Assembly (NCBI GenBank): GCA_903930345.1
Contig: CAIYYI010000478.1
Span: forward strand, 1 to 33,815
Direction of reading: 5' to 3'
DNA length: 33,815 nt
Origin: an uncultured Verrucomicrobiota bacterium
GTDB taxonomy: Bacteria; Verrucomicrobiota; Verrucomicrobiia; Limisphaerales; CAIYYI01
In this document: in pieces, positions 27,152-32,557 of the stretch
Layout of the letters: each line of letters opens with the position of its first letter
Numbering within the stretch: position 1 is the stretch's first letter
Made by a program: the position numbers and the translations under genes
Notes under the pieces: model-generated
The model's database searches: none
What the model saw: the letters and a program-made list of their open reading frames with translations, nothing else
Told to the model about the DNA's origin: nothing

Positions 27152-27187
27152 AACCCGGGGACGTTTTACGACGTTCCCGGGTTTTTT
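27152..27187 (+). terminator. Strong intrinsic terminator after enolase
   Basis: AACCCGGGGACGT (27152-27164) pairs with ACGTTCCCGGGTT (27171-27183) with a single G-T wobble around a 6-nt loop, followed by six T (27182-27187). It begins 26 bp after the stop. Confidence 0.92.
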
Positions 27188-27427: not shown

Positions 27428-27859
27428 TCAAGGTTTGATGAGCCGATAGCAGCGAACCGGAAAAGTGACAGGAACAGTGACGGGATTGGTTCCGCCACTG
27501 AGCGAAAACGTCCAATTGGAAACCATCGGACTGGCATTTTCCTGCAGGACAAACCCGGTCGTTTCCGGCCACCATGAAAGAATCGCCCGGCCCGGCAAGG
27601 GCGCAGGTCGAATGGAGAGCAGCGGTGCGCCCGGCATTTGCACCACAGTCGGCAGAATCCAAAGACCGCCCTGGACAGAGCACTGGCTGTTGGTCAGCAA
27701 AACGCCCGCCTCTGGCTGACCGATGACCCCAGTGAGCCGATACGTGCCACCAGAGCTTTCCCGGTTGACCGAACTGGTCTTGAACCGGTCAATGACAAAC
27801 TGTTGGGCAAAACAGCCGACTGCTGCCAGCAATCCAAACAGCGAGAGATGTTTTTTCAT
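27428..27859 (-). CDS. Small secreted protein of unknown function
   Basis: This is a 143-aa protein with a clear Sec signal peptide (MKKHLSLFGLLAAVGCFAQQ). The mature part starts FVIDRF and contains GGTYRLTGVIGQPEAG, followed by QCSVQGGLWILP and a C-terminal beta-rich module (LSIRPAP..AILSWWPETTGFVLQENASP.. ending RCYRLIKP). This layout is familiar from exported verrucomicrobial proteins, but no function is known to me. The frame is open further upstream, but the ATG at 27859 places the signal peptide correctly, 29 bp after the metzincin stop. It is the last gene of the three-gene exported cassette. Confidence 0.8.
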   Translation of the reverse strand: MKKHLSLFGLLAAVGCFAQQFVIDRFKTSSVNRESSGGTYRLTGVIGQPEAGVLLTNSQCSVQGGLWILPTVVQMPGAPLLSIRPAPLPGRAILSWWPETTGFVLQENASPMVSNWTFSLSGGTNPVTVPVTFPVRCYRLIKP

Positions 27860-27888
27860 GGCAAGGGATGGTGGTTGGAAGCACCCAT

Positions 27889-29193
27889 TTAAGGTTTGCC
27901 AATAATCACGCGCCCCCCCTCGGCCACCAAAGTGAGGCGTTTGCGAATGGTCATCCGCTCTGGGTAGGATCCAGCGGCGATCTGCACGCGGTCTCCGTCC
28001 TGGGCGGCGCAATCAATGGCCTTTTGAACAGTTTTGTAGGCCCCCCCCAGGCAAATGGAAAACTCAACGGGATCTTCCAGTGGCCAAGGCCAATCGGATG
28101 GAAAACCCGGGGGCCGACCGAGATTCAACGGCGGAGGCCACTCCCAATCATCCGGTACCCCCGGCGGACGGGGCGGGAAAGCAGGGTTGATGGAAAAGGA
28201 ATTGCAGGTTCGCCGGAAGTTATTCTCCGGGCCGGGAGGGTGGAGGTTGAGTTCATCGGTGTACCAGGAGACCGGTCCGGGAAGACTCTCCACCAGACCG
28301 GCCAGTTGCCCTGCCAGCTCACATGGGGAAAGGCCCACCGCTGTGGCATTCACAAACACCGTGGAACCGCTGCACACGTGCCGTTTTTTAAGCGGATCAT
28401 TGGAGGAATCCACCAGAATTTGCCACTGATCATGGGTCAGGCGATCCGCCTTGCCGCCGTTGGATTGGTGGTAGCTCATCACATTATCGAAAACATTGAG
28501 CACCTGTTCCCGTTGAAACATGAAAAGGTTGGAAAAAGAGTTTTGAAAATTGTACTGCGCCACCTCGTTCAACGATTTGTAGCCGAAATCAAAAACAGTA
28601 TCCGCACAGCGGTCATCATTGCGCCAAACATTGCCGCAGTCCGAAGGGTCATTGCAGGGCCCGTGGGTGTGGTTCAGATCCAGGTCGTGGCCAAACTCGT
28701 GCAGGATTATCGGAAAAGAGCCGGCAACCCCGATCAGCACCCCATTGCCGACAATGGGAGTGTAAGGAAATCCCGTGCTCACCCCGGATGCGCTGTTATT
28801 GATGTACACGTTGATGGCATCAATACGCCAATTGTAGCTCGACCAGTTATTGGGCAGCTTGGCCTCGTTTTCGAGGCCTATGAGGTTTGCCCCATCGCGC
28901 GCATCCGCATTGAACCACTTGCTGGCATGGGTGAGTTCAGTCACCCCCACCAATTCGAAGCGGTACCCCCACCCCATGCGGTCCAACAGGGCATTATACC
29001 GCACAATTTCCTGCCGGATATCCGCCTCGGAACCAAGCGTCACGTCATTTGTCGAGGAGGGCCACTGGTTCTCAGGCCCTAGAATCACGTTGATGGATAT
29101 CCGCCAGTAAATGACCGCCTGCGCGGGCCACGCCGCCCCGAACACCATAAGCAGGAACGCCATCCGAACACACCAGAAGCTCACTTTTTTCAT
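27889..29193 (-). CDS. Secreted metzincin-type metalloprotease with Trp/Pro-rich linker and beta-helix stub
   Basis: This 434-aa exported protein has a signal peptide (residues 1-26, ending AWPAQA). The zinc site HEFGHDLDLNH (His165, Glu166, His169, His175) fits HExxHxxGxxH except that Asp replaces the usual Gly. A Met-turn NVMSYH follows at 238-242, so it is metzincin-like, closest in appearance to pappalysin/M43 enzymes. Eight Cys after the signal suggest disulfides. Residues 340-375 form a Pro/Trp-rich linker with a near-repeat of PPGxPxDWxWP. The last 50 residues (AYKTVQKAIDCAAQDGDRVQ onward) look like the first turns of a pectin-lyase-type beta-helix, cut short at the stop. It lies 19 bp after the large surface-protein gene and has a good Shine-Dalgarno. 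Confidence 0.82.
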   Translation of the reverse strand: MKKVSFWCVRMAFLLMVFGAAWPAQAVIYWRISINVILGPENQWPSSTNDVTLGSEADIRQEIVRYNALLDRMGWGYRFELVGVTELTHASKWFNADARDGANLIGLENEAKLPNNWSSYNWRIDAINVYINNSASGVSTGFPYTPIVGNGVLIGVAGSFPIILHEFGHDLDLNHTHGPCNDPSDCGNVWRNDDRCADTVFDFGYKSLNEVAQYNFQNSFSNLFMFQREQVLNVFDNVMSYHQSNGGKADRLTHDQWQILVDSSNDPLKKRHVCSGSTVFVNATAVGLSPCELAGQLAGLVESLPGPVSWYTDELNLHPPGPENNFRRTCNSFSINPAFPPRPPGVPDDWEWPPPLNLGRPPGFPSDWPWPLEDPVEFSICLGGAYKTVQKAIDCAAQDGDRVQIAAGSYPERMTIRKRLTLVAEGGRVIIGKP

Positions 29194-29200
29194 GCACTTT

Positions 29201-29204
29201 CTCC
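29201..29204 (-). promoter_or_regulatory. Shine-Dalgarno of the metzincin gene
   Basis: GGAG on the minus strand lies 7 nt before the ATG at 29193, inside the 19-bp gap after the upstream stop codon. It supports independent initiation within an operon. Confidence 0.7.
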
Positions 29205-29212
29205 AGTTTGAG

Positions 29213-32200
29213 CTATTGCAGACTGACCAGCACCAGCACCATGCCGTAGCCTGACGGCAGGCTGGTCATAGCCTTGCCGATGACCGCCCCTGGCCGACGC
29301 ACAGAGTCCGCAGCCTTCATCAGATGCCCCCGGGTGTCCGAGGTGGTCAGCAAATCGCCCGGCTTGATGGGTGCGTGGGTGGCATCCGCCAAGGCATAGA
29401 CACGCCCGGAAAGAGCGATGTTTTGCGTCCCCTCCAGCACGCCTTCCTGACGCAAGGTGAGACCGGGACGGACACCATTTGCCCCGCTGACAATACCAGC
29501 CACGCGTGTATCATAGGCCTGGGTGCTGATTTCCAATTGGCCTGGGTGGTCTTCATCAATCACCACCACCGCCCCCTTGGGAACATCTTCATGGGAAAAT
29601 TGGAACGGCTCAGCCAGATCACTCCCCCCCTTGATTTCAAGAACCGCCACCGAGACATTGCGGGCTTCCAGATCCATATAGGAAGCCGCCGCCGGATTGA
29701 ACAGGGACACTTTGAACACATTGCTGTTCAAGCTACCCATCTGGATATCATTCCCAACGCCGTCGCCACCCAGATAAGCGGCCTCGCCGCCGGTCCCATC
29801 CACCCGGAGATAGCGACCAGCCACCTGCAGTTTCTCCGAGGGAGTCTGGGTTCCCACACCAACATCCCCACCGTCGGCAATACTGATCCGAGACCTTTCG
29901 TGGGTACACAAGTCCAGGCCGTAAACATTGGGGCCGGAACTGCCTCGCCGAGAATATAAGCCAACCCCACTCGTCCCCCCGAATTCAATGCCGCCATCCA
30001 ATCCGGCCGTGTTGGTATTGCTGGCATCCACCATCAAACCCGCTTTCAACTTCAGCAATCCATTGGGTTTGACACTGGCCATCTCCACGTCACCAGCCTC
30101 CAACGAAAGGATGTCATCCCCGTCTGAGGCGCTGATAGCCAAGGCTGCCGCCGGGTTGGTCACATTGATGCCAACCCCGCCGGTGGCCCGAACCAGAAAC
30201 TGATTCATGCCAGTGGAGGCAAAATCAGTGTCGTGATTATCCGCCCAGACAAAGGTTCCGGCATGCCGGGCCTGGGCACGGTGGCCTGCTGCCAGGCTGC
30301 GGGATCCGCTCGCCAGATTACCAACCCCGCCCGGCACTGCCGCCCCCGACCCGGAAGCCGTGTTGTTCAGGCCACCAGAAACGGTCCCGGCGTATCCAGC
30401 GGAGTTACCGCCTCCCCCGCCCACCGTTCCGATGTTTTCAGTCACCTGGTTGGCCAGGACAAAAGCCGCCCCCTGCCCGGTTTTGGTGTCGGTGCTGTAA
30501 CCCTCGTAACCACCACCGGCAATGGTTGCGCCAACACTTCCACTGGCAATGGTGTTGCTCCAGTACCCTCCCAGAAGGTTGACTCCTTCCGTGAAATCAT
30601 CGCTGCCAAACACGGTGCTTTTCCGGTGTCTGAGGGACAGGGCGCGGACATCATTCGCACGGAACTCCATCGGCCTGTTGTCGCTGGTGCCGAGAAAGTG
30701 CGTGCCCGCGAGGGTGCCGGCATTGCCGGTCATCACCCATCCCCCGGAGGCCGCCAACCCGAGGTTGGTCAGGGCGGAGCCATTGCCGGAAAAACTAGTG
30801 GCGCTCACGGTGCCTTGAAAGGCTGCACTTCGGTTCATCAGCGCAACATTGGTGGTCAGACGTGCGTCGGGAAGCGTTCCCTCAAGGCTGCCAGCTCCCA
30901 CCCCCACCAACCCTGCGCCATTACCGACAAAACCAGCCCCTAACGTCATCGCCCCTCCCGGCACCACGGACAAGGTGTTGTCAGCGGCATTCGCACTGAT
31001 AAGGTCCAGACCGCCATCCCGGTTAAGGTCGGCAACAATCACAGCCCAAGGCGAACCGCCAATGCTGTTCGTGCTGGCGAATCCAAACCCTCCCCGCCCA
31101 TTATTGGTCAGCACCGTCAGGGTTCCTGTCGCGTTATTGACCGCCACCAAGTCCTGCCAGCCATCCCGGTTCAAATCGGCTCCGGTCACGGCGATCGGCA
31201 CGTTTCCCACCACCAGCGTCGCTGCCGTCACAAAAGCCCCTCCGGCACCATTCGTCAGCACCGTCAGGGTGCCAGCCACCGCGTCCGCACTCACCAAATC
31301 CTGGCGGCCATCCCGGTTGACGTCCACCGCTGCGACTGCATACGGACGGTTCCCCACTGCCGGGGAGGCTGCCAAGCGAAAACCTCCGGCTCCATCGTTG
31401 GTGAGCACAGACAGGGTATTGGCCTGAAAATTGGCGCTCACCAAGTCCGCCCAACCATCCCCGTTCACTTCGGCAACCTGAACAGCATACGGTTGCCCCC
31501 CCACGCCGGGGGAAACCATCACCCCAAAACCACCGGCGCGATTGTTGGTCAGTACGGTCAAGCTGTTTGCCCCGCTGTTGGCACTCACCAAGTCCTGCCA
31601 ACCGTCCCCGTTGACATCGCCAACCGCCAATGATCGAGGGCCAACCCCGACTGGAATGATCACGGCAGGACCAAATCCGGCCCCGCTGTTGGTAAGCACG
31701 GTCACAGTGCCATCGACCGAATTGGCAGTGGCCAGATCCTGCCGTCCATCATTGTTTAAATCCCCGACCACCACGGCACTGGGATAGGCACCCACACTCC
31801 AGTGGGCCGCCGAAACAAAACCACCCTGCCGATCATTGAGAAGCACTGTAACGGCGTCATCTCCGGTGTTGGCACCGATCAAATCCAGCCAGCCGTCCCC
31901 ATTGATGTCCCCTGCCGCCACCGCGTGAGGGGCAGTTCCTACACCATGAGCCACGGCACGCCCAAAACCAAAGGTGAAGTTTGTCGTCCAGAAAATGGCT
32001 CCACCGGTGTTGGCGGCCCGCAACTCCATATTCGTCAACGCCTCGCCGCTACCGCTAAAAGTGCCCGTCAGGCGCACTCCAGCCCCGCCATTGATCACCA
32101 CGCTTCCCGGCAATTGCCCGGTTGCCAACACCCCCAGAATGTTGGCGGCATCGACCTTGTTGGCGGTGCCGGAAACACCGGCATTCGGCGCAAAAAGGGC

Positions 32201-32557
32201 ATACGGCACAGGCGTGACCGGTTGACGGGGGGAGAGGATAACATAGGTTCCGGTGTCCCCATTGGTCCGCACCCCGATTTCCAACCACCGAGACGGCCCG
32301 GTGAAAACGCCCGGGCCAAAATCCACCAAGGCAGTAAACTGCCCGTTACTGATAGACAGAGCGTTAGTAAACCAGGGGATACCAATCACATCGCCCTCGG
32401 CTGGCCCACTGAAAACGACAAAACGCAAATCGTACGTTCCCCCGGCAGGAACACCCCGGTCGGTCAATCGGCCTTGATAAGTAAAAGCAGTATCTTGCGC
32501 CACAACGCCATTGATCCCCAGAAGGGAACACAAAAGAAGAATCCAGAGGGCTTTCAT
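29213..32557 (-). CDS. Large secreted surface protein: FG-GAP/VCBS repeats plus YadA-head-like region
   Basis: This is a 1114-aa protein with a signal peptide (1-20, ending NGVVA). Residues 22-125 form a domain opening AFTYQGRLTDRG and closing near PRQPVTPVPYA, common in exported verrucomicrobial proteins. Residues 206-540 hold seven FG-GAP/VCBS-type repeats of 48-49 aa, each with a DxNxDGxxDL calcium-site-like core. After that come beads of GSGxALTN/GNGSALTNL type and, around 670-790, Gly/Ser/Ala-rich segments (GTVSGGLNNTASGSGAAVPGG, then AAGHRAQARHAG) resembling trimeric autotransporter head repeats. The C-terminal 150 residues (from SDLAEPFQF to VLVLVSLQ) form a distinct domain without a membrane anchor that I recognise. 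It is probably an adhesin or scaffold; how it stays on the cell is unclear. It is the first gene of the exported cassette. Confidence 0.82.
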   Translation of the reverse strand: MKALWILLLCSLLGINGVVAQDTAFTYQGRLTDRGVPAGGTYDLRFVVFSGPAEGDVIGIPWFTNALSISNGQFTALVDFGPGVFTGPSRWLEIGVRTNGDTGTYVILSPRQPVTPVPYALFAPNAGVSGTANKVDAANILGVLATGQLPGSVVINGGAGVRLTGTFSGSGEALTNMELRAANTGGAIFWTTNFTFGFGRAVAHGVGTAPHAVAAGDINGDGWLDLIGANTGDDAVTVLLNDRQGGFVSAAHWSVGAYPSAVVVGDLNNDGRQDLATANSVDGTVTVLTNSGAGFGPAVIIPVGVGPRSLAVGDVNGDGWQDLVSANSGANSLTVLTNNRAGGFGVMVSPGVGGQPYAVQVAEVNGDGWADLVSANFQANTLSVLTNDGAGGFRLAASPAVGNRPYAVAAVDVNRDGRQDLVSADAVAGTLTVLTNGAGGAFVTAATLVVGNVPIAVTGADLNRDGWQDLVAVNNATGTLTVLTNNGRGGFGFASTNSIGGSPWAVIVADLNRDGGLDLISANAADNTLSVVPGGAMTLGAGFVGNGAGLVGVGAGSLEGTLPDARLTTNVALMNRSAAFQGTVSATSFSGNGSALTNLGLAASGGWVMTGNAGTLAGTHFLGTSDNRPMEFRANDVRALSLRHRKSTVFGSDDFTEGVNLLGGYWSNTIASGSVGATIAGGGYEGYSTDTKTGQGAAFVLANQVTENIGTVGGGGGNSAGYAGTVSGGLNNTASGSGAAVPGGVGNLASGSRSLAAGHRAQARHAGTFVWADNHDTDFASTGMNQFLVRATGGVGINVTNPAAALAISASDGDDILSLEAGDVEMASVKPNGLLKLKAGLMVDASNTNTAGLDGGIEFGGTSGVGLYSRRGSSGPNVYGLDLCTHERSRISIADGGDVGVGTQTPSEKLQVAGRYLRVDGTGGEAAYLGGDGVGNDIQMGSLNSNVFKVSLFNPAAASYMDLEARNVSVAVLEIKGGSDLAEPFQFSHEDVPKGAVVVIDEDHPGQLEISTQAYDTRVAGIVSGANGVRPGLTLRQEGVLEGTQNIALSGRVYALADATHAPIKPGDLLTTSDTRGHLMKAADSVRRPGAVIGKAMTSLPSGYGMVLVLVSLQ
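30937..31942 (-). repeat. Seven tandem FG-GAP coding repeats of about 147 bp
   Basis: The stretch encodes seven consecutive 48-49 aa units with VG-x2-P-xAV, then a D-x-N-x-DG-x2-DL core, then TVLTN. DNA similarity between units is visible, for example the recurring CAGCACCGTCAGGGT around 31113 and 31257. The first repeat (near 31942) and last (near 30940) are the most divergent. Confidence 0.75.

Follow-up and report, generated by a model that had tools for sequence, protein, structure and literature searches.

A recurrent cassette of exported proteins in Verrucomicrobiota and other phyla: a candidate modular system for enzyme display

What might be built by three adjacent genes coding for a large repeat protein, a protease, and a small protein, all apparently exported? 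The question is raised by a 33,815-nucleotide stretch of DNA from an uncultured Verrucomicrobiota bacterium of the order Limisphaerales (the window), which is contig C478 of a metagenome-assembled genome (MAG) of 7.2 Mb in 709 contigs. The genes, named here BIG, METZ, and SMALL, lie on the minus strand with intergenic gaps of 19 and 29 bp. An earlier note on this DNA had described the same arrangement with a signal peptide on each protein. The coordinates agree, as do the N-termini, which all show, by eye, a basic n-region, a hydrophobic stretch, and a plausible cleavage site. Also, its large repeat protein is borne out by seven FG-GAP_3 stretches in BIG (1.6e-55), and its metzincin by the predicted fold of METZ, which matches PAPP-A and ADAM-8 despite Pfam scores below the cut-offs. 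This locus represents a single copy of a modular cassette that is widespread and, on balance, probably builds a surface-displayed enzyme via tagged docking on BIG. The key features are the C-terminal tag of METZ and the C-terminal domain (C-domain) of BIG, both absent from the earlier note.

METZ has relatives elsewhere in the order, in families other than that of the window. Of the relatives that include the catalytic domain, nearly all adjoin a BIG relative, often together with SMALL. One contig (G037:C75) has the exact order BIG-METZ-SMALL, with a METZ about 50% identical to that of the window; in another (G084:C549), BIG and METZ (53%) are followed by a SMALL relative 172 bp further on. 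The search for the same trio in other genomes, which had been proposed earlier, was thus positive. The possibility that the three genes are never co-located elsewhere is excluded, and the general cassette occurs in many phyla as well. Long antisense open reading frames (ORFs) are present, for example one of 404 aa at 27868-29082 on the plus strand. BIG, METZ, and SMALL are regarded as real genes because homologues of all three occupy the same relative positions elsewhere.

Far relatives were reached only by the profile of the BIG C-domain. The 80 named C-domain loci are the top-ranking ones among at least 466 relatives, and their phyla follow the MAG labels given by the submitters, which can be wrong. 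These labels are Verrucomicrobiota, Planctomycetota, Chloroflexota, Calditrichota, Zixibacteria, KSB1, Bacteroidota, Armatimonadota, Gemmatimonadota, Eisenbacteria, and Acidobacteriota. The Verrucomicrobiota relatives include MAGs labelled as Pedosphaera, Limisphaerales, and Verrucomicrobia subdivision 3. A tagged gene follows the C-domain in most labelled groups, and the cassette is present in MAGs labelled as at least eight phyla. The order of BIG, enzyme, and SMALL persists across phyla with short gaps (median of 18.5 bp between BIG and the tagged gene in 84 non-redundant cassettes). The cassettes are located in unrelated gene neighbourhoods.

Directly downstream of the C-domain lies a gene whose product varies in its catalytic part but ends in ~55 residues of similar sequence. 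Across 146 genomes of the order, 43 of the 49 C-domain genes are directly followed by a gene for a secreted protein ending in this shared tag. The families occupying the slot, assigned per cluster from its representative, are thermolysin M4, subtilase S8, astacin M12A, beta-lactamase-fold S12, sortilin/BNR, trypsin S1, pro-kumamolisin S53, kelch, C10 streptopain, M6, Vps62, endonuclease/exonuclease/phosphatase, reprolysin M12B, M43/reprolysin-like, and M23. An additional set of M6-domain proteins scored below the curated cut-off. Of the 83 non-redundant slots, 54 belong to clusters assigned to a peptidase family, 16 are kelch/BNR propellers, one is a nuclease, and 12 are without assignment. 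In several cassettes, one BIG is followed by two or three tagged genes. At L093:2117-7625, for example, three consecutive tagged genes (two kelch-type, one of the S53 cluster) come after one BIG, and a single fibre may there serve several cargos. At L104:864-2387, the product of the post-BIG gene has the tag-like segment at its N-terminal end, with ~415 residues behind it; the tag can also stand at the front of a longer protein.

The tag profile matched 58 ORFs around BIG, the great majority of which end no more than four residues after the tag. A genome-wide search with this profile, independent of BIG, gave 44 strong matches (E <= 1e-9) in the 146 order relatives; it scored only the best first-look candidates per genome, and some tags may be missed. 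Thirty-eight of these strong tags have a C-domain on their own strand at most 4.5 kb away, where 0.01 would be expected by chance. Weaker matches were mostly partial and inside longer reading frames, as ordinary proteins with beta-helix N-caps would give. The strongest evidence for the link between tag and C-domain is a control based on the N-terminal domain of BIG. A tagged gene follows none of the 136 N-domain relatives without the C-domain versus 12 of the 14 with it (Fisher 5e-16, a nominal value because related genomes are not independent). Among 289 other Verrucomicrobiota genomes, five of which (the window's own included) have any C-domain match, no tag match stronger than 2.7e-11 was found apart from the window's own.

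In the PDB, the tag profile matched the N-cap and first coil of right-handed beta-helices, with PL6 alginate lyase (5gkd, 2.6e-7), pectin methylesterase (1qjv, 2.4e-4), and a phage tail spike (1.6e-3) among the matches. A solenoid of successive coils was not seen in the tagged genes; in the great majority of them the chain stops after the first coil. Prediction confidence for the tag is moderate to good (block pLDDT 64-87). The METZ model consists of the metzincin domain, a very low-confidence proline-rich linker (residues about 307-383), and the separately folded tag. As modelled, this is the layout of a docking module.

The AlphaFold2 (AF2) model of the C-domain (pLDDT 85.8) resembles phage autochaperones. 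Its best Foldseek matches in the viral library were phage proteins, some of them named preneck appendage or tail fibre (E 1e-12 to 1e-9), with TM-scores of 0.58-0.63 to preneck appendage models. In the PDB, phi29 gp12 (3gqh and 3suc) was retrieved with a probability of 1.00 and E-values of 2e-3 to 8e-3; the top matches also include capsid decoration proteins of phages, which have the same type of barrel. At the sequence level, hhalign aligned the C-domain with gp12 at E 0.0015 and a probability of only 16%, the PDB search with the C-domain profile gave no usable match, and Peptidase_G2 was absent from the Pfam matches. BIG D980 and E983 align with D692 and E695 of gp12 within the common motif S/A-D-x-x-E-x-F, in which S or A takes the position of S691. 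The D and E are invariant in all 77 aligned C-domains, and S or A precedes the D in 66 of them. Phage gp12 cuts itself between S691 and D692 once its C-terminal domain has aided trimerisation. The related MyRF/endosialidase chaperone follows the same logic using a serine-lysine dyad (PMC8326128). Because the C-domain shares the gp12 fold and the aligned D980/E983, BIG probably forms, by analogy, a trimeric fibre whose chaperone releases itself. The retention of these two residues suggests self-cleavage.

SMALL combines a constant module, conserved across phyla, with a lineage-specific tail. The tail is Por_Secre_tail in L163, L190, and L147 and dockerin type I in L176, L179, L170, and others; the ends are 'YLPLVxR'-like in Chloroflexota and of the '...FYRLxxP' type in Verrucomicrobiota. 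The SMALL gene adjoins 43 of the 136 BIG relatives having no tagged gene, and its partner is therefore probably BIG, not the enzyme. The gene associations imply two pairings, SMALL with BIG and the tag with C-domain-type BIG. A search of PDB sequences with SMALL gave no usable match. The idea that SMALL is a lipoprotein was set aside: the 'AVGC' of the window is not a strict lipobox, and the Cys is missing in many relatives. A 1137-aa protein encoded at L071:306-3719 (G000:C524) matches the SMALL-type tail with its last 60 residues. Judged from the sequence, Verrucomicrobiota may use this tail repeatedly as a C-terminal sorting module.

In the simplest model, tagged enzymes would be held on a surface fibre anchored by SMALL. 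BIG would be a secreted, probably trimeric fibre, with the C-domain serving as a gp12-like self-releasing trimerisation chaperone. The enzyme, here the metzincin, would be a separate secreted protein attached to the BIG assembly by its flexible linker and generic beta-helix-cap tag. The constant module of SMALL would bind BIG, and the lineage-specific sorting tail would link BIG to the cell envelope. A general version across phyla, in which enzymes of any fold are displayed on a phage-related trimeric fibre via a universal tag and the assembly is anchored by SMALL, with a tail fitted to the sorting machinery of each phylum, is plausible rather than probable. The earlier note had proposed a protease-processed or protease-displaying structure. 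Display fits better, while processing explains neither the propellers, the nuclease, nor the tag. Of the trio taken there as a unit, the cassette stands but can do without the metzincin; about a dozen unrelated enzymes occupy the slot, the metzincin being one of them, and some cassettes contain kelch proteins only.

Several points weigh against this display model. The fold match between the C-domain and gp12 is modest at the PDB level (TM-score 0.46-0.57). A C-domain released by cleavage and then lost, in the manner described for gp12, could not retain cargo. SMALL directly follows the tagged gene in only 37 of the 84 cassettes (a lower bound), and a tail resembling a sorting domain is no proof that a protein sits at the surface. 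No co-variation was seen between tag and C-domain sequences (r = 0.04 across enzyme families, with 116 of 500 permutations as high), so that a specific docking interface between them is unsupported. The enzyme type maps on the C-domain tree with 57 changes versus 61.8 in shuffles, barely better than shuffled labels. A generic plug would be expected to show such a near-random distribution.

The main rival assigns the slot enzyme to the maturation of BIG. It would trim the C-terminal chaperone or activate the fibre in trans, any protease would suffice, and self-cleaving S74-type relatives would need none. Such a role suits the 54 of 83 slots filled from peptidase families of many unrelated clans, as well as the lack of tagged genes after N-domain relatives that have no C-domain, several of them S74-ended. 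We consider it unlikely, however, since at least 17 of the 83 slots hold kelch/BNR propellers or a nuclease, kelch-only cassettes exist, the conserved D and E point to self-cleavage, and a processing enzyme has no need of a shared C-terminal tag. Alternatively, the tag could be a secretion or sorting signal for a general export machine, its nearness to C-domain genes reflecting co-regulated export rather than docking. Such signals classically take the form of short C-terminal modules on unrelated enzymes, SMALL has sorting tails in other lineages, and the missing co-variation would agree with this. Yet a general signal should occur on many scattered genes, whereas 38 of 44 strong tags sit beside a C-domain and no comparable ones were found in the 289 other genomes of the phylum; this makes the explanation quite improbable. 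Very improbable is a mere genomic habit, that is, exported genes co-inherited and perhaps moved horizontally as a block without a shared complex: the unrelated neighbourhoods and the nearly random enzyme types are in line with it, but conservation of a tag on unrelated enzymes requires selection in common or a partner shared by them, and gene order and short gaps are kept across phyla.

Parts of the cassette resemble known things: phage autochaperones, dockerin-like tagging, and type IX tails. With the gp12/Peptidase G2 autochaperone of phi29, the C-domain shares the fold and the motif around S691/D692/E695; unlike it, the C-domain lies outside the Pfam profiles and occurs on proteins exported by bacteria, whose operons also encode tagged enzymes and SMALL. 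The Peptidase_S74-ended fibres of the order have the N-terminal domain of BIG and a C-terminal trimerisation chaperone, and several adjoin SMALL, but they are among the N-domain relatives without a tagged gene (0/136). As in the cellulosome, unrelated enzymes carry one small tag on a flexible linker beside a large scaffold-like protein, and some SMALL tails are dockerin type I. The cassette tag, however, is a beta-helix cap and not a dockerin, the enzymes are mostly peptidases, and Pfam revealed no dockerin or cohesin in the tagged enzymes tested or in BIG of the window. The type IX secretion system (T9SS) likewise uses C-terminal sorting modules on exported proteins, and Por_Secre_tail is found on SMALL in some lineages. 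The enzyme tag, in contrast, is unrelated to Por_Secre_tail, and neither this module nor CHU_C was found at the C-terminus of the tagged enzymes tested. The tag is present also in Chloroflexota, which to our knowledge lack a T9SS.

The tag, C-domain, N-domain, and SMALL of the window gave no match above the curated Pfam or NCBIfam cut-offs, and PADLOC detected no defence system. A description of the cassette was not found in the open-access literature; most subscription journals and bioRxiv fell outside this scope. We know of no described system of this composition, and the view that it is undescribed stands within the model libraries and literature searched. Should the display model hold, a plug-and-play module for enzyme display, built on a phage tail-fibre chaperone fold, would be common to uncultured bacteria of many phyla from soil, freshwater, and sediment. 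One could then predict from sequence that many exported proteases are located at the surface, and the tag could be used for enzyme display. The model also offers a functional hypothesis for three families outside Pfam and NCBIfam, namely the C-domain, the enzyme tag, and SMALL.

Table 1. Features of the cassette region, in positions of the window. HMM, hidden Markov model.
Feature	Position	Strand	Description	Basis or occurrence
BIG	29213..32557	(-)	1114-aa exported fibre-like protein, cassette scaffold gene	ORF and translation; relatives at matching relative place elsewhere
BIG N-terminal domain	32195..32488	(-)	'AFTYQGRL...SPRQPVTPVPYALFA'	Common to S74-ended relatives
BIG FG-GAP repeat region	30959..31960	(-)	7 FG-GAP_3 stretches	PF13517 1.6e-55, PF01839 6.8e-22
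BIG C-domain	29216..29671	(-)	152 aa, predicted phi29 gp12-type autochaperone fold, cassette-defining	A2/A4 alignments, AF2, Foldseek
SDLAE motif	29609..29623	(-)	BIG residues 979-983	Aligned with gp12 S691-D692...E695
METZ	27889..29193	(-)	434-aa secreted metzincin, exchangeable enzyme slot
Zinc-binding motif	28669..28701	(-)	HEFGHDLDLNH, residues 165-175	A3 alignment
Met-turn	28468..28485	(-)	NVMSYH, residues 237-242	A3 alignment
METZ C-terminal tag	27892..28071	(-)	Residues ~375-434, beta-helix N-cap-like	HMM matches at C-termini of post-BIG genes
SMALL	27428..27859	(-)	143-aa exported adaptor-like protein
SMALL constant module	27650..27802	(-)	'GGTYRLTGVIGQPEAG...GGLW' type	Conserved across phyla in cassette SMALL proteins
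SMALL tail	27431..27634	(-)	Lineage-specific, '...FVLQ...CYRLIKP'	T9SS or dockerin tails in its place in other phyla
Terminator-like hairpin	27152..27183	(+)	14-bp stem and T run	Between enolase and cassette

Both the HExxHxxGxxH/D signature and the Met-turn of metzincins are found in METZ, which is presumably an active enzyme. In the A3 alignment, H165, H169, and H175 are invariant and E166 is kept in 11 of 12 sequences; N237, S240, and Y241 of the Met-turn are invariant as well, and M239 and H242 are conserved at >=90%. The Gly position of the zinc motif is variable, being D in METZ and D, G, N, S, A, or other in its relatives. METZ remained below the Pfam cut-offs for Reprolysin_5 (16.2 of 27 bits) and M43 (PF05572, 11.2 of 23), the latter model giving 23.6 bits for one relative, L087. 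PAPP-A and ADAM-8 ranked first in Foldseek with the METZ model, and the label 'metzincin' is correct because of this fold match. METZ shares the catalytic fold, HExxH...H, and the Met-turn with pappalysin (M43) and ADAM/reprolysin (M12B); it differs from both in its sub-cut-off Pfam scores, the Asp in place of the usual Gly, and the cassette tag. The scan of GTDB genomes with a single-protein METZ pattern found nothing, and the PDB sequence search gave no usable match. A tandem metzincin paralogue at L155:13408-14412 retains the tag but has HAxxH instead of HExxH; to judge from this replacement, the copy is probably catalytically inactive.

The N-terminal domain of BIG is present in 86 of the 146 order relatives and had no match in Pfam, NCBIfam, or the PDB. 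Many BIG relatives show no match to FG-GAP, and this region is therefore dispensable for the cassette. A PHROGs search gave nothing relevant, its single weak match being in the FG-GAP region. The C-terminal modules alternate among BIG relatives: S74 (at the end of several N-domain relatives without the C-domain), the cassette C-domain, and, in one copy of the window's own genome, a VgrG-type domain. In that copy (L053:13132-16360; G000:C182:29131-32359), a SMALL homologue is followed by a BIG relative with the N-domain and FG-GAP repeats, which continues in frame into VgrG/Phage_GPD (PF05954 5.4e-33, TIGR03361 1.2e-31) until the contig end. This is either a secreted FG-GAP-VgrG fusion or an assembly join.

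The start of SMALL was placed at an internal ATG; the mechanical ORF begins at TTG, position 28012. A promoter and terminator scan of the region remained at chance level, the total of terminator-like sites being no higher than chance. The cassette is flanked by a convergent enolase gene on one side and by a gene for L-2-hydroxyglutarate oxidase on the other. The hairpin between enolase and the cassette is likely the terminator for enolase.

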